DNA from: a virus
Virus record (IMG/VR): IMGVR_UViG_3300024520_000500
Span: 1 to 23,645 of that record
Strand: one strand, 5' to 3'
Length of the DNA stretch: 23,645 nucleotides
The position numbers were made by a program, and so were the translations under genes. Positions 3,690-19,705 of the stretch are shown in pieces; positions within the stretch are counted from its first letter, which is position 1, and each line of letters starts with the position of its first letter. The notes under the pieces are model-generated. The model saw nothing but the letters and a program-made list of their open reading frames with translations, had not been told where the DNA came from and searched no databases.

Positions 3690-6600
3690 TTATGCCTCTA
3701 GGATATTAACTGCTTCGAACCAGTAGACGCCGCCGCCAAGTGACGAACCGCCGACCGAGCCGACGATCAATGTGTCGTGACTCATGGCAACGGAACTGCC
3801 GAAAAGTTGATTGGCGAACGGCTCGAGCGTTTCGATTGCTTGGATCAGCGTCCATACTTCGCTATCCGTTTGTCTATCCCAGATTTGCACCTGCCCGACG
3901 TTTGCATGGTCTGCACTGTGCCAATCAGACGCGCCCGCGGCGATGCGCGTAGGTGCGTCGCCTGGTCCGAATGCCAGACTTTTGCCGAATTGTGTCGGGT
4001 TGGAAACGTCCTGAAATTCGATCGTCTGCTGCAACGTCCAAGTGTCCGTCGTTGTTTCTTTCAGGATATGCACGCCGCCCTCAGTCGGCGTTGACGGGTG
4101 ATTTGGCGATGCCACAGCGATATACGTGCCGTCGTCGCTGATCGTCAAAGCGTCGCGGGTCGTCAGACTCAACCCTGCCTCGGGTACGTCAAAAGTGTCA
4201 CGCTCGGTAAACGCCGTGCCGGTGTCGCGATAGATATACACTCGCCCATCCGTGCCTAGGCCGAAATCTGTCGCGAGCACGGCGAGCGTCGAACCGTCAG
4301 CGGAAAAGCGCACGACGTGGCCGAAATAACGCTGCCCCGATGCCGGCCCGTTGATCGGTGCCGGCGACGCGCCATAAGGTGCCCAAGCCGTGCCGGTGCG
4401 TTTGTAGATGTGAATGCGCCCGTCGTTCGCGGCACCGTTGTTGTATCGCGATGCACCGACGCAGGCAAAAATCCCATCGTCCTTATTGATAGCAACCGAT
4501 TCGCCGCGACCCTCACCGGCTGATCCGGCGACGTTGTGTTCGATGGTGAAAACGCCATCCAAAAAACTATAGATAACGTGCCTGCCCGATGCGGCGCCGT
4601 TTTCAGTGTCTGCCCAGTCACCGACCATAAAGCGCTGGCCGTTCTGGGCGATACTTACGGCGTGCCCCCAATTGCCCGCCGTCGTGGCGGGACTGAGAAT
4701 TGTCTCGTTGACGACTTCCCATATCCCGCGTTTTTTCATTAGGTTTACTTTCAGACCATCGGCGCCGGTAGGTGCGCCAGCGATGCAGAACAAACCCGAG
4801 CGCGCCATATCTACGCCTAGACCATAATTCGAACCACCGGGGCCCTGGTTGTATTGGAGCTGCTTGAACAGCCCGCGCGCAGAATAGCCAATGATTTGAT
4901 TGCCAGCGATCGACCACTCGGAATCGCCGCCGTTATTTACCGACAGTATCCTCAATCGAGATTCCCATTCTTCGCCTTCGGATATATTGATTGAGACCTC
5001 GTCGACCGTGGAATCGCTAACGATCGCGACCGTGCGCCACGCTGCCGCCGACGTCCGGCGCGCCTGTATTTCGTACGCGCTGAATGCTGCGTCCGTTGTC
5101 ACCGTCCACGAAATAGTAGCGCTAGCGATCAGATTGCCGATTGCCGGGCCGACTGCCTGCAGTTCAGACGTTTTCGTGATCGTCGGCGCCGACGGCGTCG
5201 CGATCTGCACGATGCCGATCACTTCCTCCTCGACGCCGATCGGTTCCGGAATAAACTGGATTTTTGTCTGCGCATTTATCTGCGTGTGCGCCTGCGTGCC
5301 GAAATACCACGACGACCGATCCGGGATCTCGTCGAGTAGCCAACCGAGCAGATCGGATCCGGTCGTGCGCTCGTCACGCGTGCCGCGGATAACGCTCGCA
5401 CCGTGGCTCGCGGTGCGCCGGGCGACTGCGTTCGGCGGCGTGCTGTCGCCGTCGAGCAGCAGAACAAATCCACCGGGTGCGCCGCCGCCGCCATCGCCCG
5501 CCCAGTAATTATCGCCGCGTGAAACACTCGCTTGTCCGGCGGATCCGTTGGCGCCGCTGGTATCGATATCGGCGCTCGCACCGAAAGACATTCCGCGCGC
5601 GATGATAAGCAGACCCGCCCCACCGTCGCCGCCGGCGCCGCCGTTCGCGTTTAGTGTCGATCCATAGTCGCCGGTGCCGATCCCGCCGGGCCCGCCGGAT
5701 CCGGTCAGCTTGGTCGGCAATCCGGTCAGCGACGTTCCGGCGGCGTTGATTGTGAGCGCGAACTCGGGCAGTGCGCCGAGCGCCGGCGCATAAGACCAGG
5801 CAACGCCGGGGTTCGGTTCCTTTTCGCCGATGAACTGCGTCGACTGCGACAGATTTGTGTGCCGCAGTCCGCCACCAGCAGACGGCGAGCCGACATAACC
5901 GACGACGCCCTGCGTCGCGTTGTTGGTGTACAGCGTTTGCCCGTTGCCGCCGTTCTCACCGCGCCCGACGCCGTCAAACGAGCCCAGCTGCGTGAAAAAC
6001 CCGCGCACGAAAATGCGCACCGTTCCATTGATCGTGATCGTCACGCCCGAATTCAGCTGCAAATTGCCGAGATAAAAATAGTCGCCGGCGGTGAGGTTGC
6101 CATTGCTGATAATGTTGCCGCCGCTGATATTTAGCGGCACGTCGAGATCGGTCGCGCCTTGCGACGTGTACCACGTGTTTGCCAGGTGGGACGCGGCGAC
6201 GCTTTCAGTGATCGCGCCCGCGGCCTGCGAGGATCCGAACAATGTCAGATTGACCGCACCCGTCACCCAATCCGTCGACGACTTTTGCACTTCGAACGAT
6301 CGATCGAGCCCGGTTCCGGTGTGTATGTCGCGGATCTGCGAAAGATTTACGCGAACAATGTCGCCGACCTCGAGCACGTTGAACCGGTGAAAGACGCGCA
6401 GCGTCAGCCGCAGCGGCGGGCCCGCGTGGCGCGATCGGAACGTGTCGAAGTGTGTGCGCAGGTTCTCGTCGTTGTTGACTGCGGTCGCGACGCCGCGGAA
6501 AACGAAACGTTTGGTATTCGCCTTACCCCAGATCGCAATTGAGTCCGTGTCGATTAGCACATTCGATTTCGTGTACTGGTCGTCCTTGGCCTTCTCGAGG

Positions 6601-8216
6601 TGGTTGAAATTCCAATCGACTTGTATCGTGTTGATTATGTCGGGCAGCGAGTGCTCGAGCTCCCCGTAAGCGGCGATCGTTTCATTGTTGAGCTCGGCCA
6701 CGTAGTCGGCGTCGTTCAATACCTGCGTGAACCGCTTTAGTCCTATCTCGCCGCTCGCATAGACCGGCATGTATCCGCCGATCCACAACAGAATTTCGCG
6801 CTCGATGAACCGCTTCGCGTCCTGTTTCTTGATCCCGATAAAACGCAGCCGGATCGCTTCGGGATCGCTACCGTCAGCCGGCGAGGTGCTGTCGTACAGG
6901 TCGACGCCGATGCCGGTGAAATCGGCCGCACGGATGTACGCCGCCGGCATGTCCGCGTGCCAGTGCGCCGGCGTCGTGTCGGCGCCCTGCCCGATTAGTG
7001 TGCCATCCATTACAGAGCGCAGGATCTTGATCGCCGGGCCCTCGAGATAAACGACCTCTTCGATTTTCGGCTGGCGATCATTGTCGGCGCCCGAATTGAG
7101 ATCGACCGCCGCTTGCGACGAACTCAACGCGCCGCGCGCCAAAACGTGCAGACTGATTCCGTCGGTTGTGTGCGTGAACAATGCGGTGCTCGCGTTGCCT
7201 AACGTCGGATGATCGCCGCAACGGATTATCTCGTCCTTGATCTTGACGTAGCACACGGCGGTATTCGGCGCGTCGCTGTAGCCGCCGTCGTGGTCGACTA
7301 AGAAAAACGTGTCGGTTTTATTCGGCTCGTGAACGGGTATGTGCGTTTGCGTCGCAGTGATGTCGGTTTTGAGCGTCGTTGTGTGGACGTCGAAAACGTC
7401 CTTGCGTGCGAACCGCTGCGCGTCGGATGCGTCGATCGTGTAAACGCTATCGCGGTAGGTCGGGCGGTCGACGAAAAACGTGTGCCGCAGTTCGTAGTCC
7501 GCCCATATCATAGTGCCGTAACCGACCCAGACCTGCACGCGAGCGCGGCGCATGCCGTCTCCGTCGGTGTTTATTGCGTCCTCGATCAACTCGGTCAGCG
7601 TGCCGCTTTCCGTTTCCTTTGAGATCGACAGTCCATACACGGACCCGTCGAATCCGGACTGCTCCTCGAACGTGATCGAGCCGCCGGCGCCGGCGACGAT
7701 CGTTTGCGTGTGATAACCGTCGGCACTTTGCAGCGTGCCATTGGTGCCGCCGAGATCGATACGGATCGAGCCCGCCGTGCGCCCGCGGATCCCGAACCGC
7801 ACTATGCAGCTGTCGCCGCTCGCGAAGCGGTTGTTAGTTTGCGCAAGGGTTGCGGCGCCGCCGCCGTACGTCGCCTGTCGGTTCGCCGTGTCGATCGTGA
7901 CGTCGCCGGATACCGTCGTCCAATCGCCGGCGCCGAACTCGCCGTCCTTGACGAAGTTGCGCGGATCGATTACCTCGAACTTCAGATTGCCGATTTCTGA
8001 TATCGCTTTTTCCGGCGTCACGCGTTGCGACACGCCGTCGACGTTGCGCAATGTATCGTTGAGCACGTTCGCGCCGGTCGGGTACTTGGCGTGCACGTCG
8101 CTCGTGGCATAGACGACGTTCGTGTCGGCCAAATCTAGCGACATGCCGACCGTGACGTGTACCTGTTTGTTGAGCGCAAAGTTAGCGCTCGAGAAGTTGT
8201 TGTTATCAATTAACAT
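3690..8216 (-). CDS. Large tail-tip/adhesin protein with Gly-rich, FN3-like and beta-propeller regions (1508 aa)
   Basis: ATG 8216 overlaps the previous stop by 11 bases; no Shine-Dalgarno is visible, so it is probably translationally coupled. Residues 1 to about 665 look like a tail hub or baseplate region (DAQRFARKDVFDV, FIEREILLWIGGYMPVYASG, FHRFNVLEVGDIVRVNLS), with a possible beta-sandwich insertion at about 86-205. Residues 690-925 are beta-rich and end in a Gly-rich block (GGPGGIGTG, GGAGGDGGAG, GDGGGGAPGG). Residues about 1008-1105 resemble a fibronectin type III domain. Residues about 1131-1505 hold seven repeats of 52-62 residues, each with an FG-x-S-V start, a Gly/Ala-rich turn and a VYIY-like strand, close to FG-GAP_2/integrin-type propeller blades. 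The position after the tape measure marks it as the distal host-recognition protein. Domain limits are estimates; the hub assignment is by context. Confidence 0.8.
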   Translation of the reverse strand: MLIDNNNFSSANFALNKQVHVTVGMSLDLADTNVVYATSDVHAKYPTGANVLNDTLRNVDGVSQRVTPEKAISEIGNLKFEVIDPRNFVKDGEFGAGDWTTVSGDVTIDTANRQATYGGGAATLAQTNNRFASGDSCIVRFGIRGRTAGSIRIDLGGTNGTLQSADGYHTQTIVAGAGGSITFEEQSGFDGSVYGLSISKETESGTLTELIEDAINTDGDGMRRARVQVWVGYGTMIWADYELRHTFFVDRPTYRDSVYTIDASDAQRFARKDVFDVHTTTLKTDITATQTHIPVHEPNKTDTFFLVDHDGGYSDAPNTAVCYVKIKDEIIRCGDHPTLGNASTALFTHTTDGISLHVLARGALSSSQAAVDLNSGADNDRQPKIEEVVYLEGPAIKILRSVMDGTLIGQGADTTPAHWHADMPAAYIRAADFTGIGVDLYDSTSPADGSDPEAIRLRFIGIKKQDAKRFIEREILLWIGGYMPVYASGEIGLKRFTQVLNDADYVAELNNETIAAYGELEHSLPDIINTIQVDWNFNHLEKAKDDQYTKSNVLIDTDSIAIWGKANTKRFVFRGVATAVNNDENLRTHFDTFRSRHAGPPLRLTLRVFHRFNVLEVGDIVRVNLSQIRDIHTGTGLDRSFEVQKSSTDWVTGAVNLTLFGSSQAAGAITESVAASHLANTWYTSQGATDLDVPLNISGGNIISNGNLTAGDYFYLGNLQLNSGVTITINGTVRIFVRGFFTQLGSFDGVGRGENGGNGQTLYTNNATQGVVGYVGSPSAGGGLRHTNLSQSTQFIGEKEPNPGVAWSYAPALGALPEFALTINAAGTSLTGLPTKLTGSGGPGGIGTGDYGSTLNANGGAGGDGGAGLLIIARGMSFGASADIDTSGANGSAGQASVSRGDNYWAGDGGGGAPGGFVLLLDGDSTPPNAVARRTASHGASVIRGTRDERTTGSDLLGWLLDEIPDRSSWYFGTQAHTQINAQTKIQFIPEPIGVEEEVIGIVQIATPSAPTITKTSELQAVGPAIGNLIASATISWTVTTDAAFSAYEIQARRTSAAAWRTVAIVSDSTVDEVSINISEGEEWESRLRILSVNNGGDSEWSIAGNQIIGYSARGLFKQLQYNQGPGGSNYGLGVDMARSGLFCIAGAPTGADGLKVNLMKKRGIWEVVNETILSPATTAGNWGHAVSIAQNGQRFMVGDWADTENGAASGRHVIYSFLDGVFTIEHNVAGSAGEGRGESVAINKDDGIFACVGASRYNNGAANDGRIHIYKRTGTAWAPYGASPAPINGPASGQRYFGHVVRFSADGSTLAVLATDFGLGTDGRVYIYRDTGTAFTERDTFDVPEAGLSLTTRDALTISDDGTYIAVASPNHPSTPTEGGVHILKETTTDTWTLQQTIEFQDVSNPTQFGKSLAFGPGDAPTRIAAGASDWHSADHANVGQVQIWDRQTDSEVWTLIQAIETLEPFANQLFGSSVAMSHDTLIVGSVGGSSLGGGVYWFEAVNILEA

Positions 8217-12347: not shown

Positions 12348-12668
12348 TCAGACGTTTTCCTCGCGGCACTCGAGGTTGAGTTGCCGGTTTCGCTCGCCGG
12401 GATTGAGTGCGGCGAGAATCTCGAACGTGCGCGTGCCGAACTGGATCCGGTGCTTCGTCGTGACGCCGGCGAGGTATCGAAGTACTACCACGTGCGTCGT
12501 ATCACCGCGCACGGTGCTGTTGGCGTTTTTCTCCGTGCCTTTCACGGGATTGATCGACGCACGCCGGGTCGCGAACGTCGACCAGGTGTCGACCGTGCCG
12601 CCGCGCGCGTTCTGCGTCTGCGTCGTTTTCTGGATCGTGACCATGTGGCGCAGCGTGCCGGGGTTCAT
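12348..12668 (-). CDS. Head closure / head-tail adaptor protein (106 aa)
   Basis: ATG 12668 overlaps the connector stop (ATGA). MNPGTLRHMVTIQKTTQTQN..., DTWSTFATRRASINPVKGTE and the HRIQFGTRTFEILAALNPGERNRQLNLEC end are typical of the phage head-tail joining family (PF05521, related to SPP1 gp16 and the HK97/lambda stopper). It forms the ring below the connector that closes the DNA channel until the tail binds. Length and position are standard. Confidence 0.85.
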   Translation of the reverse strand: MNPGTLRHMVTIQKTTQTQNARGGTVDTWSTFATRRASINPVKGTEKNANSTVRGDTTHVVVLRYLAGVTTKHRIQFGTRTFEILAALNPGERNRQLNLECREENV

Positions 12669-13234
12669 ACGGCATAGATCCGGTATTGATCGAGGATCGA
12701 CTCGACGTGCAGCGGCACCTTGGCAACGATCGTGCCGGTTACTATCGGCACACGTGCCTCGTACCAGTGCGCGACAATCATCGCGATCGCCTGGCGCAGC
12801 GCCTGCGGGATTGCGTTCTGATCGCCATACCCGGCAACGTAGGCGAGCAACACGGCGTCGGCCTCGAGCCGCGTCGCCGGCCAGCTGACGCCGTTCGCGC
12901 GCTCTACGATCCCCTGCGGGATGCTCAACTTGTATTGACTCGCGGCCAGCGTTTGCGTCGCGCCGTTTGCGTCGACATATGTGACCGACGCGACAGATAG
13001 GATCGGGCGGCGCTGCAACTTAAATGTCGTGATCGGGAACGCGTCGACGTAATGCGTCAGCGTTTGCGTGAAAAAAGCGCGCCCGGTGTAGTTCTCGGCA
13101 TAGTTCGTCGCGGCTTGGATCAGCAACGCGATATATCCGTCGTCGTCGGTGTGCTCGACCTGCGCGTGTTTCTTCGCGTCCTCGGCCGATATCGGTACGC
13201 CGGCGGGTTCGGTTGTTCGCAGCTCATAAGCCAT
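12665..13234 (-). CDS. gp6-like head-tail connector (189 aa)
   Basis: Start at ATG 13234 (MAYELRTTEPAG), which overlaps the stop of the cassette's last gene by 11 bases; the frame is open to 13291 but that part is inside the upstream gene. The N-terminal ISAEDAKKHAQVEHTDDDGYIALLIQAA is the hallmark of the phage gp6-like family (PF05135). The middle has QRRPILSVASVTYVDANG and the C-terminal helix IPQALRQAIAMIVAHWYE. HK97 gp6 forms the ring under the portal. This gene restarts the canonical head order after the sugar cassette. Confidence 0.85.
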   Translation of the reverse strand: MAYELRTTEPAGVPISAEDAKKHAQVEHTDDDGYIALLIQAATNYAENYTGRAFFTQTLTHYVDAFPITTFKLQRRPILSVASVTYVDANGATQTLAASQYKLSIPQGIVERANGVSWPATRLEADAVLLAYVAGYGDQNAIPQALRQAIAMIVAHWYEARVPIVTGTIVAKVPLHVESILDQYRIYAV

Positions 13235-13877
13235 TGCTAAGGTGCCCCCATGCTTCGCCCGATTCGATGTCGGACCAGTGCCAATCGGCAAACGGTAATA
13301 GGTCGCGCCAGTTCGGCTCGTTGAGAATATGCGTCGCGTCGAGCGCCGTTACCTCAAGACCGAGCAGTGCCGCGCGAACTAGCGCTGTGCTCAGATAACC
13401 GCGGGCGAACCGATGGCGCGTCAGTGCCGCGTACAACGACTCGGTCGGCTTTTCGATTTCCGGGTGCAATCGTACGGTGTCGGCTTGCTCGACCGTGCCG
13501 CCATAGTCGGCGAGGAAAATCGTCCCGCTGTCGCCGGCCTGGTCGTCGATCTCGGGCGGCGCGCGCCCGGTGCCGAGCAAAAACTTGCGACCGCCGTCGG
13601 GCCGCAGCCAACCAAGCGACACGTTCGGCATACTCGCCATGTAGCGGCCTTGCGGTTCAAATCGGTAGTAGGCGCGATCTAACCAGATCGTGCGCTCGTG
13701 CTCGAGCCAATACTGCTTTGCAAAGTGCGGGCCGCTGACGACGTGAACGTCCGCCGGCGCGCGCGGGTCGTGCGTGACGCGAGCAGTCAGCCCGTGCGCT
13801 TCAAAGCCTCGCGAGAGCCACACGCCGTGTTCGACTTGATGTGCCTGCGCAGGATTGACGTGAACGGCAATATCCAT
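13224..13877 (-). CDS. Cassette protein of unknown fold, possibly glycosyltransferase-like (217 aa)
   Basis: ATG 13877 has GAGGT about 9-10 bases upstream and overlaps the preceding glycosyltransferase by 91 bases. The sequence begins MDIAVHVNPAQAHQVEHGVW and has a GFEAHGLTARVTHDP segment, an alternating beta/alpha pattern like the N-terminal Rossmann half of GT-B enzymes. Then come HVVSGPHFAKQYW and RTIWLDRAYYRF. No E-x7-E or other clear catalytic motif is visible and the protein is short for a full GT-B enzyme. The C-terminal part (ALDATHILNEPNWRDLLPFADWHWSDIESG) is Trp/Asp-rich. By neighbourhood it acts on the same substrate as the glycosyltransferases, but this is inference. Confidence 0.6.
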   Translation of the reverse strand: MDIAVHVNPAQAHQVEHGVWLSRGFEAHGLTARVTHDPRAPADVHVVSGPHFAKQYWLEHERTIWLDRAYYRFEPQGRYMASMPNVSLGWLRPDGGRKFLLGTGRAPPEIDDQAGDSGTIFLADYGGTVEQADTVRLHPEIEKPTESLYAALTRHRFARGYLSTALVRAALLGLEVTALDATHILNEPNWRDLLPFADWHWSDIESGEAWGHLSNGL

Positions 13878-14473
13878 GGTTCGTTGACCTCGAGCTCATG
13901 CGGATCGGGGCGACCGTGGAACGCGATCACGCTCGCATCCGCCGGCGGTGCTTGTTTTCCGCGACAGTGATACTTATACGAACAAACGCCCGGTAGACGA
14001 ATCCAATCGTTGCCGAGCAAGTGCCACAGATATTCCTGGTCGCCGTAAAATCGTTCCGAGTCGATCGGGTAGTCGAACTCGCGTTGCGGTTTGTCCCACC
14101 AGCCCGACCACGCCATGACAGAGCTTTGAATGCCGCCGTGCCCGGACTGCGCCCAATTCGCCGGCGCGCACAAGCGGCCGCGCGGTGTGTTCGCGTACTC
14201 GACCAGGTAGTCGAGCTCGCCGCAGATAACGACGTCGAGATCCAAGTAAATACTCGGACCCATGGCGAGCGTCGGTGAGAATAGTCCGATTTTCTGCCAC
14301 CAACCCGAATAACTGACGGGCGGCAATCGCGTCGTGATGCCGGGTAGCGTTGCTGTCGTTATACACACGAACTCGTGCGGTTCGCGCAGGTGCTGCTCCA
14401 CCGCGTCGCGTAATGTGTACACGTAACCCGGCGAGTACTTGTCGCCCCAGAAAACGCAAAAAACAGTCAGCAC
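13787..14473 (-). CDS. DxD glycosyltransferase (228 aa)
   Basis: Starts at GTG 14473 (or GTG 14476), overlapping the methyltransferase stop by 7-10 bases; the frame open to 14578 is an overlap. It has a GT-A layout: beta strand TVFCVFWGDKYSPGYV, helix LRDAVEQHL, FVCITT, GWWQKIGLF, then the metal/nucleotide-binding D-x-D at 78-80 (YLDLDVVI). Later come GGIQSSVMAW, FYGDQEYLW (residues 142-150) and AFHGRPDPHE (184-193), whose His is a typical GT8-like metal ligand. It should transfer a sugar from a nucleotide-sugar; donor and acceptor are unknown. After about residue 200 the coding region overlaps the next gene, so that tail is probably non-essential. Confidence 0.8.
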   Translation of the reverse strand: MLTVFCVFWGDKYSPGYVYTLRDAVEQHLREPHEFVCITTATLPGITTRLPPVSYSGWWQKIGLFSPTLAMGPSIYLDLDVVICGELDYLVEYANTPRGRLCAPANWAQSGHGGIQSSVMAWSGWWDKPQREFDYPIDSERFYGDQEYLWHLLGNDWIRLPGVCSYKYHCRGKQAPPADASVIAFHGRPDPHELEVNEPWILPFTSILRRHIKSNTACGSREALKRTG

Positions 14474-14979
14474 CACACACCCCAGACGGCATTGGCGCCG
14501 CGCATTATTTCGTCGCCGAACTTCTCGTCGACCGCTTGCACGACGCCGGGGAAATTGCGGTCGTAGTCGTGACCGCACAGCAGACCGCCGGTGCGGATCT
14601 TAGGTAGCCACAATTCGATGTCGCGACGCACGGATCGGTAGTCGTGCTGTGCGTCGATGAACGCGAAATCCAGCGCGCCGACGTGGACCAATGGCGCGGC
14701 GCACTCGCTGTGCATCCGCATTTCGATCGCGCGCTCGCCGAACGGATTGACCGCCGATAGATACTGCGAATAAATCACCGACCAGTTCCAGCCGATATAG
14801 TCCTCGTTCGCGCCGGGCTGATCCTCCCACGGGTCGACGGCGTACATTTCGAGCGACGGATACTGGTGCAGCAGGTGCGCAATGAACCGCCCTTCCTTTA
14901 CGCCGACCTCCGCGCCGAGCAACGGTCGGATGTGCGAGATCCAGCCGGCGACAACATGCCAGCGCGCGCTCCCCGTCAC
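14467..14979 (-). CDS. Class I SAM-dependent methyltransferase, Methyltransf_24/CmcI-like (170 aa)
   Basis: GTG 14979 overlaps the previous stop by 4 bases (GTGA). The sequence has the SAM-binding motif I region LGAEVGVKEGRFIAHLL (residues 21-37), an acidic end of strand 2 (MYAVDPWED), the FIDAQHDYRSVRRDIELW block (108-124) and the GGLLCGHDY block (131-139). The FIDAxHxY and GGxxxGHDY patterns are typical of small-molecule or sugar O-methyltransferases related to Methyltransf_24 and CmcI. It lacks DNA methylase signatures (no D/N/S-PP-Y/F/W). A sugar or other small acceptor made by the neighbouring enzymes is the likely substrate. Confidence 0.8.
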   Translation of the reverse strand: MTGSARWHVVAGWISHIRPLLGAEVGVKEGRFIAHLLHQYPSLEMYAVDPWEDQPGANEDYIGWNWSVIYSQYLSAVNPFGERAIEMRMHSECAAPLVHVGALDFAFIDAQHDYRSVRRDIELWLPKIRTGGLLCGHDYDRNFPGVVQAVDEKFGDEIMRGANAVWGVWC

Positions 14980-15569
14980 TTGCGTTTCCGCTTCCTGTCG
15001 GTGAAAACGACTTCCTCGCCGACGTCGCCGGCGGCGGCAGCAACCGCCGCGACGATATCGATTAGGTGTATCGCGTCACGCTTGACGCGCTCAACGATTA
15101 TCGATTCGATCGAGTGCTTCGCGAGCTCCGCGATCAACGGCGGTTGCTCGGCGTGCCACTTCGGGCGATCGGTCATCATTAAATATTTTGACCCGCTGGT
15201 CAGCAGGTTGCTAAGCGCGAGCTCGCTTGCGGCGTAGGGCAAATGATTGAGCACCCATAGGCACAGGATCAGATCGGACTGCGGCGGTTGTTCCTCGAGC
15301 AAGTCGAACCGGTTTACTCGCTCGTGGCGCGGAACCAGATCGAGGCCGAGATAGTGCGCGCCGCGCAGATCCATATGTTGCAACCAGTTGAGATCGCCGG
15401 CGCCGACGTCGCAGATCGTCTCGATCCCATAGCGCGTGATTACTTCCGGGATCCACTCGCGCTGCAGTTCGGTCGTACTCATTTTCGAACCGTAGCCGCA
15501 CGGAGTCTCGGGCAGTCCGCCACTCCAACCGCGTTCGAACTTGGCGCGGTCGGCGATAATGTCGCTCAT
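14976..15569 (-). CDS. Class I SAM-dependent methyltransferase (197 aa)
   Basis: ATG 15569 overlaps the upstream glycosyltransferase stop (ATGA); upstream open frame to 15962 is a shadow. Motif I is CDVGAGDLNWL (residues 53-63), followed by YLGLDLV with an acidic residue at 77 and SDLILCLWVLNHLP (98-111), the strand-4 region. The C-terminal half has KYLMMTDRP and a basic end (DRKRKRK). The N-terminal RAKFERGWSGG ... GYGSKMSTT segment resembles phage and plasmid methyltransferases with an N-terminal substrate cap. No DNA methylase catalytic motif is seen. It forms a pair with the adjacent Methyltransf_24-type enzyme. Confidence 0.8.
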   Translation of the reverse strand: MSDIIADRAKFERGWSGGLPETPCGYGSKMSTTELQREWIPEVITRYGIETICDVGAGDLNWLQHMDLRGAHYLGLDLVPRHERVNRFDLLEEQPPQSDLILCLWVLNHLPYAASELALSNLLTSGSKYLMMTDRPKWHAEQPPLIAELAKHSIESIIVERVKRDAIHLIDIVAAVAAAAGDVGEEVVFTDRKRKRK

Positions 15570-16057
15570 CGATACGCCTCGTAAAGTGCGACCGCGTCCG
15601 GATCCGGGTGATCGTGAAACCACGGCTGCGTCGAGAGATCGGTAAAATGCACCAGCTTGGCGCCGTCGGTTACTTTGTCCTCGACGTTCCAATTGAGCGG
15701 AATCACACACGACTTGGCCAGCAAGTGCTCCTCGCGTTTGTTCCTGCAGGTGTGTTCGTACCCGGTGATGATCGCGACCTCCGTTGTCCCGTCGCGCAGG
15801 CAAACGAAGCGGCCCGCCTCGCGCAGCTCCCATAACTCCGCAATGTCGCCGAGCACGATCATGTCCGGATCCAGATAGATAGCGTCGCGGACCCGGTAGC
15901 GCACGTTTGAAAATCCGGTGCAGCCTTCCTCCGGTACGGTCGCAACGTGGCTGATCTCGCACGGCGTCGACGTGTTGCGCAAAATGCTGCGCTCGGTCAG
16001 TCCCTCGATAATTCGAAATCGGTCAGACATGCCGATAGTGATCGGTATGGAAAGCAT
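15566..16057 (-). CDS. GT8-like glycosyltransferase, short (163 aa)
   Basis: Start at ATG 16057 with GGAG about 9 bases upstream; this overlaps the preceding gene by 61 bases, while the alternative ATG 16030 would cut the first strand. The sequence runs IPITIGMSDRFRIIEGLTER, SILRNTSTPCEI, then the D-x-D at 63-65 in AIYLDPDMIVLGDIAELW, LVHFTD (135-140, metal-binding His) and PWFHDHPD. This is the core of a GT8-like GT-A enzyme. It is much shorter than typical GT8 enzymes (about 250 or more residues) and tight between FSNVRYRVRD and the DxD strand, so it is a minimal or trimmed version. It should use a nucleotide-sugar; acceptor unknown. Confidence 0.75.
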   Translation of the reverse strand: MLSIPITIGMSDRFRIIEGLTERSILRNTSTPCEISHVATVPEEGCTGFSNVRYRVRDAIYLDPDMIVLGDIAELWELREAGRFVCLRDGTTEVAIITGYEHTCRNKREEHLLAKSCVIPLNWNVEDKVTDGAKLVHFTDLSTQPWFHDHPDPDAVALYEAYR

Positions 16058-16653
16058 CGCATTGCGCTCCGTTCGGTGCAGTTGATTATTTCCACGCCGT
16101 AGTCGGCCGGCGTGATGGTTTGCATTTCGCGAATCAATCCCTCGAGCTCGCCGTCGGGCCCGGTCATCGGCCAGTGCTGCAAGTGCGACGGGTACTCGCC
16201 GAAATAGTGCCGCGGCGCGGCGTACGCGTGGCGGTTTATCTTGCCGGCGTAACGCATGTCCCAACCAATGAGCAGCATTACCTTGCACCCATAGTGCAGC
16301 GCGAGGTTGACGATCTGCGGTCCCGATCCGTGGTGCGCGCAGATGTAATCCGGATCCGTCGAGAGCCCCGGTTCCCACCGTTCGGCTATGTAGTGGATCC
16401 CATACTTCGCCGCGCTTTCGGGGCGCGTGGTCCACTTCGCACAGTCGTAGTCGCGAATCTGCGGCCAGTAGGTATCCCACCACTGCCAGTTGCAGGCGAG
16501 GTGGACGTCGAGGCCGAACTCGAACGCGTTATTGCAGCCGAACGTTCGCAGGTGCGACACGCTGGCGACCTGGTCCGCGGTCAGACTCGGGCCCGTGCCG
16601 ATCACGACGCCGATTCGCGGTTCGCCTGGTTCGAATAAGTCGAAAGTGTGCAA
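15997..16653 (-). CDS. GxGPSL Rossmann-like phage protein, second tandem copy
   Basis: The conserved region starts at RIGVVIGTGPSLTADQV and contains LACNWQWWDTYW, AAKYGIHYI, GSGPQIVNLALHYGCKVMLL, HYFGEYPS and YGVEIINCTERSAMRCFP. It matches its upstream neighbour along the whole length, so the two are tandem paralogues. G-x-G-P-S-L occurs in MptE/DUF115 and in flagellin-glycosylating Maf proteins, and phages carry related proteins sometimes labelled 'norphogenetic protein'; activity is unproven. Start is uncertain: TTG 16653 gives the most natural N-terminus but has no Shine-Dalgarno; GTG codons at 16725, 16734 and 16758 lie inside the upstream gene. It overlaps the next glycosyltransferase by 61 bases. 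Confidence 0.65.
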   Translation of the reverse strand: MHTFDLFEPGEPRIGVVIGTGPSLTADQVASVSHLRTFGCNNAFEFGLDVHLACNWQWWDTYWPQIRDYDCAKWTTRPESAAKYGIHYIAERWEPGLSTDPDYICAHHGSGPQIVNLALHYGCKVMLLIGWDMRYAGKINRHAYAAPRHYFGEYPSHLQHWPMTGPDGELEGLIREMQTITPADYGVEIINCTERSAMRCFPYRSLSACLTDFELSRD

Positions 16654-16672
16654 AACGGTTTTTGCGACCGCG

Positions 16673-17347
16673 CTACAGCGCCGTTTCCGGGGTGCCCGCG
16701 CCGGCGGGTTTGGGATCCGCTCCACGTGGAACACGGAGCGCGACCTCGAGATCGGCACGCGGGAACACTTCCAGCGCGCCGCCGCGGGTGCAGTTCGTCA
16801 CCTCGATTCCGTAGAGCTCCGGGCGCAGATTTGCAAACGCCCATTGCATCAAATCGAACGGCTGGTCGACGTTGAACCGCGGCGGATGATCGCCGAAAAA
16901 GTGCCGTTTCTGTTGCCCGAGTTCGCCATGTTGCAGATCGATTCCGAGCAGCAGGATCCGACGCGCGCCGAATAGATACGCGAGGTTGATCGCCTGGTAG
17001 GCGCTATTGCTGCCCGTGTGAATGCAGTCCTGCCCGAGCCCAGCGTGGTCGACGCCTTTCAGACGGTGCAATCCGTACTTGATCGCGGCACCTTCGTCGA
17101 CCGTCCACCGCTCGCCGGCGAACGCTTTGAACGCGTGCAGGTTCGGGTTGTGCTCGGAATAGTGAAAATCCCACCAGTGATAGTCGCAGGAATACAGATA
17201 GTCCGCCCATGGCGCCACGCGATACACGTCGCTGATTGCGATCACGATCGCGCGCCCGCGGCACGCGTCGACGTCAGCCTGCAGCAGACTCGGGCCGCTG
17301 CCGATAACGACTACCGGTTGCGATCCGGTTTGGCGGACTTGTTCGAG
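16673..17347 (-). CDS. GxGPSL Rossmann-like phage protein, first copy, likely made by -1 frameshift
   Basis: The conserved N-terminus PVVVIGSGPSLLQADVDACR is encoded at 17317 to 17258. The frame has a stop at 17428-17426 and no ATG, GTG or TTG before GTG 17245, which lies downstream of that motif. Translation must therefore enter from the overlapping 63-aa gene (slip site 17353-17347) or use a non-standard start. Further motifs are SDVYRVAPWADYLYSCDYHWWDFHY, IKYGLHRLKG, GSNSAYQAINLAYLFGARRI, HFFGDHPPRFN and YGIEVTNCTRGG, shared with the following paralogue. Relatives include MptE/DUF115, Maf-like and phage 'norphogenetic' proteins; the fold suggests nucleotide or nucleotide-sugar binding. A fusion would be 52 + 224 = 276 aa. 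Function unproven. Confidence 0.65.
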   Translation of the reverse strand, partial: LEQVRQTGSQPVVVIGSGPSLLQADVDACRGRAIVIAISDVYRVAPWADYLYSCDYHWWDFHYSEHNPNLHAFKAFAGERWTVDEGAAIKYGLHRLKGVDHAGLGQDCIHTGSNSAYQAINLAYLFGARRILLLGIDLQHGELGQQKRHFFGDHPPRFNVDQPFDLMQWAFANLRPELYGIEVTNCTRGGALEVFPRADLEVALRVPRGADPKPAGAGTPETAL

Positions 17348-17502
17348 TTTGGGCGGGCGGGCCCGCCTTCCTGCTGCGCCAGTCCGGCGGCGACCATATC
17401 GGCGGCGAAATTGCCGGTGATCTCGTCACCGACGACAAACTTTCGCGCGTGCTTTTCGCCGTCCGGTGCGCCGCGGAATTCGCGAAGTACTGTTGCTTTC
17501 AT
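17311..17502 (-). CDS. 63-aa head-region protein; zero-frame partner of the frameshift
   Basis: ATG 17502 is preceded by AAAGGAG at 7-base spacing, the best ribosome-binding site near the capsid gene. The protein is MKATVLREFRGAPDGEKHARKF... then VGDEITGNFAADMVAAGLAQ and a hydrophilic tail. Small proteins of this shape (strand, charged loop, 'G-D-x-I' strand, helix) commonly follow the major capsid gene in siphoviruses, possibly as accessory head proteins; no function is proven. The slip site lies at its codons 51-52, so a share of ribosomes may extend it by 224 residues. It could also be a module that targets the downstream enzyme to the capsid, which is inference. Confidence 0.7.
   Translation of the reverse strand: MKATVLREFRGAPDGEKHARKFVVGDEITGNFAADMVAAGLAQQEGGPARPNSNKSAKPDRNR
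17347..17353 (-). promoter_or_regulatory. Candidate -1 frameshift heptamer C-CCA-AAC
   Basis: Read on the minus strand, C CCA AAC fits X-XXY-YYZ exactly in the phase of the 63-aa gene; slippage moves ribosomes into the GxGPSL frame. AGGAAGG lies about 12 bases upstream, like the stimulatory element of dnaX, and ACCGG/CCGGT with a 7-base loop could form about 18 bases downstream. The AAC A-site codon is not the strongest bacterial slipper. Confidence 0.5.
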
Positions 17503-17583: not shown

Positions 17584-18963
17584 TTAGGAAGCGGCGACCT
17601 TGACCAGCTTGATCGCGTCGTCGTTTAGTTTGTTCCCGCCCAACCGTCGCCGGATGTAGAACTTGATATTGCCCGGTGCCGTTATGTTGTCGTCGACGGT
17701 GATGCGCAAGGTATTGACGATGTCGCCAATTTGATAGCCTTCGTTGAAATCACCGAACGCGATCGGGAACGTGTTCGCGCCGATATCGGGCATCGCTTCC
17801 GCCTCGAGTATCGGATAGCCAAGCAACCCGTTCGGCTGACCGGCCGCGAGGCCCGGCACCCATAGCAGATTGCCGTTTGCGTCACGCAGTTTCCGGATCA
17901 CGCCGAGCGTCGCCTTGTTCATAACCCAAACAGCGTTAGCACGGTATCCCGCTTTTAGCGCCATCATAGTGTCGATCAAAACCGCTTCCGGTGCCGTTAC
18001 CGGCGACGGCGCGAAAATGTAATCCTGCTGGAACGCAGCCGCGGCGCCCGTCGGGAAATACTGCAGAACCTGAAACGCACGCTCCGGGCTGACGCCTTCG
18101 TCCGCCGTGGTGACCGGCGTGCCGTCGAGAAAACCCGTCGGCTTGTCGGTGCCGTTGCCGGTGACAAACGCAACGCCTTCCTGCTGCGCGAGCACGCGAG
18201 TCGACACGTCCTCGACCAGTGAGGCGACGTCGAACTCGAGATCGTCGACAGCTTCCTCCTGCACGAACGGGTAGGCATAGGCGGTGCCATACGTGAGCGT
18301 TGCCAAGTGGAAAACCGGCGTCGTCGTTTCCGACCGAGCGCCGCCGGCGCCGACCCAACCGCCGATGCTGTTATTGTTGAGTGCGATAAATCGGTGATTT
18401 TCGTTCGATGCCTGTTGCACGTTTGCGACCTGGCGTATCGGGCTCAGGTCGTAGATTTTCGACACAATGCGATCGCTGACCAGTGTCGGAATCGCGTTAC
18501 CGCCGCCCGTGGTCGTGATGGTGATCGCACGACTCTGATCGGGTTCGCTGATCCGGCCGAAATCCATCCACGCGCCCGACTTGTAACGACGCTGCAAACG
18601 CTTCGGCAATTTGCGAATCGATTCCGCGGCAGCAAGTTGGCACTCCTCGAGCCGCCGGATCGTTTCGGGATGCTTGTTGTGTCGCAGCCAATCGTCGAAT
18701 GCGTCCTCGTGGTCGTAAAGCGCTTCGGGTACGTGCGATCCGTCCTCGCCGATCAGCAGCGGCGTATTCGCTTTCGCCTCGACTTTCGACAAACGCTCGA
18801 GCACCTCGGCGATCGCCGCGTCGACCTTCTGAACGTTGACGACGATTTCGTCCGTCGCCTTACCGTCCTCGATAATCTGCTTATAGCGCAGATCGTCGGC
18901 CGCTTTGAATTCTGCGAACGCGACGCCGAGTTCGTCGATAGTGGTTTTCAATTCCTTATCCAT
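17584..18963 (-). CDS. HK97-type major capsid protein (459 aa)
   Basis: Start ATG 18963 is supported by AGAGGT 7-8 bases upstream and an 8-base overlap (ATGGATAA) with the protease gene. Residues 1-65 form the coiled-coil delta (scaffold) domain (ELKTTIDELGVAFAEFK, KVDAAIAEVLERLSKVEAKA). A linker follows to about 140-150, where the protease should cut. The mature part has the HK97 fold signatures: TGGGNAIPTLVSDRIVSKIYDLSPIRQ, ENHRFIALNNNSIGGWV, VQEEAVDDLEFDVASLVEDV, QEGVAFVTGNGTDKPTGFL, AVWVMNKATLGVIRKLRD and the C-terminal NIKFYIRRRLGG. It assembles the icosahedral shell. It is a plausible acceptor for the downstream glycosyltransferases because it is adjacent and the most abundant virion protein. 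Confidence 0.95.
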   Translation of the reverse strand: MDKELKTTIDELGVAFAEFKAADDLRYKQIIEDGKATDEIVVNVQKVDAAIAEVLERLSKVEAKANTPLLIGEDGSHVPEALYDHEDAFDDWLRHNKHPETIRRLEECQLAAAESIRKLPKRLQRRYKSGAWMDFGRISEPDQSRAITITTTGGGNAIPTLVSDRIVSKIYDLSPIRQVANVQQASNENHRFIALNNNSIGGWVGAGGARSETTTPVFHLATLTYGTAYAYPFVQEEAVDDLEFDVASLVEDVSTRVLAQQEGVAFVTGNGTDKPTGFLDGTPVTTADEGVSPERAFQVLQYFPTGAAAAFQQDYIFAPSPVTAPEAVLIDTMMALKAGYRANAVWVMNKATLGVIRKLRDANGNLLWVPGLAAGQPNGLLGYPILEAEAMPDIGANTFPIAFGDFNEGYQIGDIVNTLRITVDDNITAPGNIKFYIRRRLGGNKLNDDAIKLVKVAAS

Positions 18964-19705
18964 TACGGATACCTCTGATTTGTTCAATCAATCCGCTCGT
19001 GTGAGCGATCGTTTCGTCGTCGTCGTCGACCTGGTCGGCGTCACACTGACCGGGATCGTCGGCGTCTGCGGCGTCACTCCGCATCGCCTGCCAGCCGCCC
19101 GCGATTAAGCGTTTGGCCTCTCGTTTCGACAGTCCTGCGTCACGCAAGAATGCCTCGAAATCTCGTACGTCCTTGAGAAATTCCGCGCGCCATGCGTCGC
19201 GGACCTCCGTGATCTGTGCGTCACGATTTGCGGGAAACGTAACGATGCTCGTTTCCCACAGATCGATCGTGTTGATTTTCCACGTGCGAGTTTCTTCGTC
19301 GTACTCCTCGCCGCCTATCGGCACGTTGAAACCGATCGACAAACCGTTGACCGCGCCCATCTTCAGCAGCGAATACGCCTTATCCGCCGTCGGCACCGAC
19401 TTCTGCACGGCGAGCGTGCCTTTGACAAACAGCCCGTGCTTGTCCTCGCGCATTTCGTCGTAAACGCCGATCGGTTCATCCGATCGGTGTTGCCATAACA
19501 GCTTCGGCATTGAGTCGTTCGACTTGTGCGCCGCGAGCGATTCTGTGAATGCGCCCGGCTGGATCTCGTCGCCGTAACTGTCGACGACGCCGAAAACACT
19601 GCCGTAGCCTTCGAACGTGCCGTCGGTGTCGAGTTGCTTGATGTTGAGCGGGCGCACAGCTTGGCGCGACTTCGGACGATCGTCGATCAGTTCGAACTTA
19701 TTCAT
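18956..19705 (-). CDS. HK97-family prohead protease (249 aa)
   Basis: ATG 19705 overlaps the portal stop by 8 bases (ATGAATAA); the longer frame to 19777 lies within the portal gene. Conserved blocks are DTDGTFEGYGSVFGVVDSYGDEIQPGAF (28-53), LLWQHRSDEPIG with catalytic His73, NGLSIGFN with catalytic Ser123, and DLWETSIVTFPAN around 148-160, which usually supplies the third catalytic residue (probably Glu151). It cleaves the delta domain from the capsid protein and then itself during maturation. The C-terminal Asp-rich tail (ADADDPGQCDADQVDDDDE) is hydrophilic. Motif residues are seen; the triad assignment follows the family. Confidence 0.92.
   Translation of the reverse strand: MNKFELIDDRPKSRQAVRPLNIKQLDTDGTFEGYGSVFGVVDSYGDEIQPGAFTESLAAHKSNDSMPKLLWQHRSDEPIGVYDEMREDKHGLFVKGTLAVQKSVPTADKAYSLLKMGAVNGLSIGFNVPIGGEEYDEETRTWKINTIDLWETSIVTFPANRDAQITEVRDAWRAEFLKDVRDFEAFLRDAGLSKREAKRLIAGGWQAMRSDAADADDPGQCDADQVDDDDETIAHTSGLIEQIRGIRNG

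Follow-up and report, generated by a model that had tools for sequence, protein, structure and literature searches.

The late operon of the tailed phage represented by IMGVR_UViG_3300024520_000500, a 23.6-kb assembled viral record from IMG/VR analysed here over its whole length of 23,645 nucleotides (nt; "the window"), contains eight open reading frames (ORFs) on the minus strand between the HK97-type capsid gene and the gp6-like connector gene. The first encodes a protein of 63 amino acids (aa), and the second, GxGPSL 1, lacks a start codon. Comparison with related loci strongly supports a frameshift fusion of the two in this family, and the sequence signature leaves little doubt that −1 frameshifting is programmed there; its use in the window itself is highly probable. 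We consider it fairly likely that a Maf/sialyltransferase-type domain is joined in this way to a small post-capsid domain, for sugar transfer to a structural acceptor.

A start-less gene and a predicted slippery site behind the capsid gene

From the beginning of its open frame (17425) down to its GSGPSL motif, GxGPSL 1 possesses no ATG, GTG or TTG and therefore cannot be a normally started coupled gene. Its frame is −1 relative to the overlapping 63-aa gene, and the overlap contains a predicted slippery heptamer in phase with that gene (Table 1), at which the two frames would join into a fusion of 276 aa.

Scans of viral and genome collections yielded 80 non-redundant GxGPSL frames, among which 49 overlap the small gene and are start-less. 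These 49 phage and prophage loci, phage D3 included, share the −1 relation between the small gene and the start-less GxGPSL frame; hosts named among the GxGPSL loci include Pseudomonas, Bordetella, Achromobacter, Lysobacter, Halomonas and Microbulbifer. In D3 and its relatives PMG1 and phi1 the orf6.5/orf7 pair is in −1 relation and contains an in-phase C_CCA_AAG; in Tetraselmis virus S20 C_CCT_TTG coincides exactly with the opening of the −1 frame, and the site of Psp6 is T_TTT_TTG. Canonical heptamers in the overlaps of the 49 loci occur 17 times in the correct phase, and twice and once in the other two phases. In 26 of the 49 loci a CCC in the right phase precedes GxGPSL by exactly 12 codons, with further cases at 11 and 14 codons. 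Typical sites are C_CCT_TTG, C_CCA_AAG and C_CCT_TCG, and more than half of the family has only C_CCN with a degenerate second half. In several records of the D3-type pair the annotated start of the "sialyltransferase" lies past the GxGPSL motif of that protein.

Table 1. Features of the capsid-to-connector region in the window, in order of transcription
Feature	Position	Strand	Basis
Major capsid protein, HK97 type, upstream neighbour of the module	17584..18987	-	phrog_10 major head protein 1.1e-60
63-aa post-capsid protein; N-domain predicted to form the N-terminal part of the fusion	17311..17502	-	homologues at equivalent place
Heptamer C_CCA_AAC, 17 codons ahead of GxGPSL; predicted -1 slippery site in the phase of the 63-aa gene	17347..17353	-	counterparts in most of 49 non-redundant loci
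GxGPSL protein 1, open -1 frame	16673..17425	-	phrog_4603 3.6e-31
GxGPSL protein 2, paralogue of GxGPSL 1	15997..16653	-	phrog_4603 3.3e-22
Short GT8-type glycosyltransferase, DxD (YLDPDMIV)	15566..16057	-	PF01501 2.6e-5, 24.3 bits, at cut-off
Class I methyltransferase 1 (MT1)	14976..15569	-	phrog_3382 methyltransferase 2.9e-22; PF13489 3.1e-5, under cut-off
Class I methyltransferase 2 (MT2), Methyltransf_24	14467..14979	-	PF13578 1.9e-14, over cut-off
Second DxD glycosyltransferase (GTb), YLDLDVVI, P1 PmgQ homologue	13787..14473	-	phrog_1962 glycosyltransferase 1.5e-19
Protein without family, always last in the module, ahead of the connector	13224..13877	-	homologues in relatives
gp6-like head-tail connector, downstream neighbour of the module	12665..13234	-	PF05135 9.5e-14; phrog_442 9.5e-33

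Coding signature and RNA structure among relatives

The change of coding frame was measured in the relatives, that is, in a D3-like set of 54 haplotypes and in 11 pairs from independent clusters. The heptamer is without any variant in the 54 haplotypes. Substitutions at 0-frame positions 1/2/3 number 15/17/40 upstream of it, and 10/26/12 and then 33/154/32 past it; they concentrate on the third codon position, of the 0-frame ahead of the heptamer and of the −1 frame behind it. The 11 independent pairs exhibit the same switch (22/15/74 before, 16/44/17 after). A switch of coding frame at an invariant heptamer excludes sequencing error for the family and renders an upstream GTG start unlikely in D3-like phages.

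An error of sequencing or assembly, or decay of a former fusion gene, could also produce the frame break of the window, which is an assembled IMG/VR record. The same frame relation is, however, present in the independently sequenced D3, PMG1, phi1, Psp6 and Tetraselmis virus S20 as well as in dozens of contigs and genomes, and in the relatives both frames are under purifying selection, each on its own side of the site; we assign this explanation an almost negligible probability.

The hairpin downstream of the site was analysed in the group with 12-codon spacing (30 sequences) against 500 shuffles. A stem of about 11 pairs starts 2-3 nt past the heptamer, and its 3' arm consists of the GxGPSL motif codons. 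Stem cells are paired in 88%, and eight are doubly changed versus 1.4 in the shuffles; the covariation score was reached in none of the 500 shuffles, and every slid register scores far lower. The signal for a Shine-Dalgarno-like stimulator, 10-18 nt upstream of the site, is weak and was equalled in 5 of 300 codon shuffles. Slippage of the RNA polymerase instead of the ribosome would join the frames as well, and long A runs are found in a few relatives (L041, L049, L006); most sites are nevertheless C_CCN without a long homopolymer, with the hairpin directly downstream, and we regard transcriptional slippage as very unlikely.

GxGPSL 1 could alternatively be a separate protein, initiated at a non-canonical start or by re-initiation past the stop of the small gene, with the overlap due to compact packing. 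Stand-alone kin with an ATG of their own are known from PAJU2, P1 and the contig locus L004, and D3-like loci possess a GTG 20 codons before the motif. Yet the stretch from −36 to −3 before the D3-like heptamer, lying partly past that GTG, evolves as 0-frame rather than −1-frame coding sequence (6/4/17), many loci have no ATG, GTG or TTG at all before the motif, the hairpin covaries, and the slippery site shows no variation and lies in the correct phase. A separate protein is thus an unlikely reading, and we retain the frameshift fusion.

Several observations weigh against a frameshift, above all for the window. In shuffled overlaps an in-phase heptamer arises by chance in 7% and a start-less frame of such length in 52%; after the window's heptamer no hairpin is evident, folding being no better than in shuffles (z −0.17). 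Owing to the weakness of these three lines when taken alone, the case for the window rests on its relatives. Its 63-aa gene is by itself a weak match to the N-domain profile of the post-capsid genes (3.7e-4), and some relatives, namely the three loci with an ATG named above, are stand-alone. The closest homologues of the 63-aa gene (L034:3211-3447, L035:4775-5023 and L036:4787-5023) overlap the GxGPSL gene in +1, not −1, relation, and all three loci have a GTG 17 codons before the motif, so that a GTG start is possible there. The overlaps of L034 and L035 contain CCC_TTT, a possible +1 shift site, and that of L036 CCG_TTT.

The 63-aa post-capsid protein

Homologues of the 63-aa protein at the equivalent place in L034-L036 are 46-50% identical. 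The small domain and the GxGPSL domain were modelled separately, as the two halves of the fusion. AlphaFold2 (AF2) predicts for the former a compact domain of about 45 residues, with a predicted local distance difference test (pLDDT) score mostly near or above 90 for residues 1-40. A fold search with this domain gave no informative match, a point against the mechanism proposed below; the GINS small domain (Z 4.2) is not interpreted. In a five-sequence test, the N-domain profile built from 38 loci recovers D3 orf6.5 (1.8e-13) and Psp6 (1.4e-6), besides the window's gene with the value given above. Without a shift, the window's product would end in a short low-complexity tail. Unshifted post-capsid products of other loci (L117-L132 and others) carry a Ser/Ala/Thr-rich basic tail past the slippery site, forced by the overlapping GxGPSL codons.

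Identity of the GxGPSL domain

The predicted structure of GxGPSL 1 (mean pLDDT 86.7) contains a Maf/GT42-like transferase domain (17314-16676). It matches the Maf flagellin glycosyltransferase 5mu5 with Z 15.5 and a root-mean-square deviation of 2.6 over 172 aligned residues, and the sialyltransferases CstI/CstII with Z about 10.5 (CstII Z 10.7); the match to an MptE-like pyrophosphokinase is weaker than either. Maf and CstI/CstII resemble GxGPSL 1 in predicted fold, in a GxGPS-type loop and in a downstream SG motif, at a sequence identity of about 15%. Maf is bigger than GxGPSL 1, and the glycans modified by CstII are lipid-linked. The sequence profile relation to CstII is weak (E 0.13). Because the score against Pfam PF01973 (MptE-like; 29.5 bits, E 7.8e-7) lies under the curated cut-off of 34.6, the protein is named here only "Maf/GT42-like" and not a proven member. 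Both GxGPSL proteins of the window match the PHROG 4603 profile (Table 1), whose kin include P1 PmgO and PMG1_0008 ("alpha-2,3-sialyltransferase"); unlike GxGPSL 1, PmgO has its own ATG and does not adjoin the capsid gene. GxGPSL 1 is likely a glycosyltransferase in activity.

Composition of the module

From capsid to connector the eight ORFs are the 63-aa gene, GxGPSL 1, GxGPSL 2, GT8, MT1, MT2, GTb and a protein of no known family. Profile matches bear out the initial annotation, which had seen here two GxGPSL proteins, two DxD glycosyltransferases, two class I methyltransferases and one unknown; these seven genes are present, and the count is corrected to eight ORFs by adding the 63-aa gene (17502-17311) as the first. 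Overlaps had been claimed throughout. Six exist from GxGPSL 2 to the connector: GxGPSL2/GT8 (61 nt), GT8/MT1 (ATGA), MT1/MT2 (GTGA), MT2/GTb, GTb/last gene and last gene/connector. The claim fails upstream of these, where the capsid ORF ends at 17584, leaving an 81-nt gap to the start of the 63-aa gene, GxGPSL 1 is start-less, and the most likely start of GxGPSL 2, TTG 16653, lies past the stop of GxGPSL 1 (GTG 16758 is a possible alternative). HK97-type phages had also been said usually to have nothing or one small gene at this place; D3-like phages usually have the small gene plus one GxGPSL gene, and the unusual part is the six extra genes. A sugar/methyl modification module co-expressed with the head genes, as originally proposed, is supported by families, fold (Maf, CstII) and synteny.

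GxGPSL 2 is 33% identical to GxGPSL 1, and its homologues in L003-L006 are 60-65% identical to it; the GT8 homologue in L003 reaches 62-63%. GTb is 30% identical to the P1 pmgQ region (L018:4367-4993, 9e-14). The last module protein has homologues of 33-52% identity in L003, L004/L032, L005 and L006, and found no match in Pfam, NCBIfam, PDB or isolated phages.

Synteny and transfer

The whole seven-enzyme row is collinear in the viral contig locus L003, L004/L032 (two loci on one contig) lack only the GT8 gene, and parts of the row are present in L005 and L006; the module is therefore not a chance reading of ORFs, and its recurrence in L003 marks it as transferable. GxGPSL 2, GT8, MT1, MT2 and GTb of L003, L004 and L006 are mostly 52-65% identical to those of the window, compared with 27-41% for capsid, portal and connector; the row thus behaves like one unit passing from phage to phage. 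The GxGPSL 1 homologue of L041 and that of D3 run directly into the connector gene, which makes insertion behind GxGPSL 1 the best reading of the additional genes.

In P1 (L018, 2444-3630 and 4301-5002), pmgO and pmgP encode tandem GxGPS proteins with their own ATGs, followed by the glycosyltransferase gene pmgQ, the GTb homologue; pmgO-pmgP-pmgQ is a stand-alone version of the window's module. D3-like phages possess a further glycosyltransferase and methyltransferase between head closure and the gp10-like gene (L009:4222-5617 and L011:2465-4408), and in PAJU2 (L011) the GxGPSL gene with its own ATG is located there too.

Remainder of the late operon

The order up to the module is terminases, portal, protease and HK97-type capsid, and past it gp6-like connector, head closure, gp10-like protein, tail terminator, major tail protein, chaperones and tape measure. 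No Rfam matches or tRNAs were found in the window. The tail chaperone G and Phage_tail_T-like ORF (11114-10387) are in the usual −1 relation, with no canonical slippery heptamer in their overlap. A 1508-aa protein past the tape measure region (3690-8216), with a weak FG-GAP repeat match at its C-terminus only and no PHROG match, is possibly a tail-tip or fibre protein.

Two known kinds of frameshift are ruled out for the site described here. A capsid-gene frameshift of the T7 gene 10 or A2 type does not apply, as the capsid ORF itself is unshifted and ends before the 63-aa gene, and the tail chaperone G/GT frameshift belongs to the pair upstream of the tape measure gene, located elsewhere at the position given above.

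Proposed mechanism

Most ribosomes on the 63-aa gene would end at its own stop and release a small free protein. A fraction would slip back one base on C_CCA_AAC, with the tRNAs re-pairing on CCC AAA, pass the stop and enter the −1 frame, giving the 276-aa fusion of the small domain with the Maf/CstII-fold GxGPSL domain. The frameshift would thus determine how much enzyme-bearing protein is made relative to the small protein, and would attach the enzyme to the product of a gene adjoining the capsid gene. By way of the small domain the transferase would reach a structural acceptor, be it capsid, connector or tail, and add a sugar to it; extension and methylation of the glycan would fall to GxGPSL 2, the two DxD glycosyltransferases and the two methyltransferases. 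Use of the site in the window, glycosyltransferase activity, docking by the small domain and the identities of acceptor and sugar are what we infer in this scheme. A structural acceptor has to be considered because the frameshift ties the enzyme physically to a post-capsid protein; that it is a virion protein we hold to be somewhat favoured, and the odds that the small domain docks the enzyme on it are about even.

Maf O-glycosylates flagellin with nonulosonic acids (PMC11339370). In Caulobacter FlmG a separate acceptor-binding N-domain, joined to the transferase domain, is required for flagellin glycosylation (PMC7591256). FlmG resembles the predicted fusion in combining an acceptor-binding N-domain with a nonulosonate transferase domain, and differs in being a single ordinary ORF with tetratricopeptide (TPR) repeats, a GT-B fold and flagellin as acceptor. 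D3 orf6.5/orf7 share with the window the post-capsid place, the −1 overlap, the in-phase heptamer and a homologous GxGPSL domain; they are annotated as separate genes, and the row from GxGPSL 2 through GT8, MT1, MT2 and GTb to the last gene is missing at the site. Programmed frameshifts in structural operons yield a longer minor product in T7/T3 gene 10, the major head protein of Lactobacillus phage A2, Listeria phage PSA and tail chaperone G/GT (PMC5009743, PMC10885494), whereas here a separate small post-capsid protein would gain an enzyme domain and not an immunoglobulin (Ig)-like or chaperone extension. Mycobacteriophage capsids and tail tubes are glycosylated by phage-encoded glycosyltransferases (Freeman 2023, as cited in PMC13313380 and PMC12619734); these phages belong to another host group, the citing passages describe no frameshift tether, and for the phage of the window a glycan is a prediction.

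Two findings count against the proposed scheme. No gene for synthesis of a donor sugar was identified in the window, and in P1 growth goes on after knock-down of pmgO, pmgP and pmgQ, which are dispensable (PMC10695390). This dispensability fits decoration better than an essential morphogenetic step.

The fusion and module may be real and act on host surface polysaccharide, through O-antigen change and exclusion of other phages, or on a small molecule. Phage glycosyltransferases also alter host serotype (PMC12619734). GT42 enzymes such as CstII sialylate lipooligosaccharide. Against this stand the position of the genes inside the late head operon, the fusion of the enzyme to the product of a post-capsid gene, the best fold match being a flagellin transferase, and a homologue, PAJU2 ORF010, deposited as "structural protein", a label without stated basis. 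We rate action on the host surface or a small molecule as a minority possibility, and prefer a structural acceptor. More tentative, and on balance doubtful, is the wider idea that the frameshift fixes the number of copies of a head-associated small protein that carry the glycosyltransferase, so that assembling heads would be glycosylated in place, at capsid or neck, with set stoichiometry, as a widespread phage strategy. Immune or receptor evasion as the purpose of the module, mentioned in the initial annotation, is speculation.

Significance

Phage tail chaperones and some capsid genes are familiar cases of programmed frameshifting. In the case described here, a sugar-transferase domain appears to be attached by such a shift to a small protein encoded next to the capsid. 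No earlier description of a phage frameshift with a sialyltransferase was found in the open-access literature searched, and priority is not certain. The arrangement is conserved in at least 49 non-redundant phage and prophage loci, the classic phage D3 among them, and it corrects the annotation of a common gene pair that is listed as two genes, with the enzyme started past its GxGPSL motif in several records. For D3-like phages it gives the search for glycans on the particles a physical rationale.

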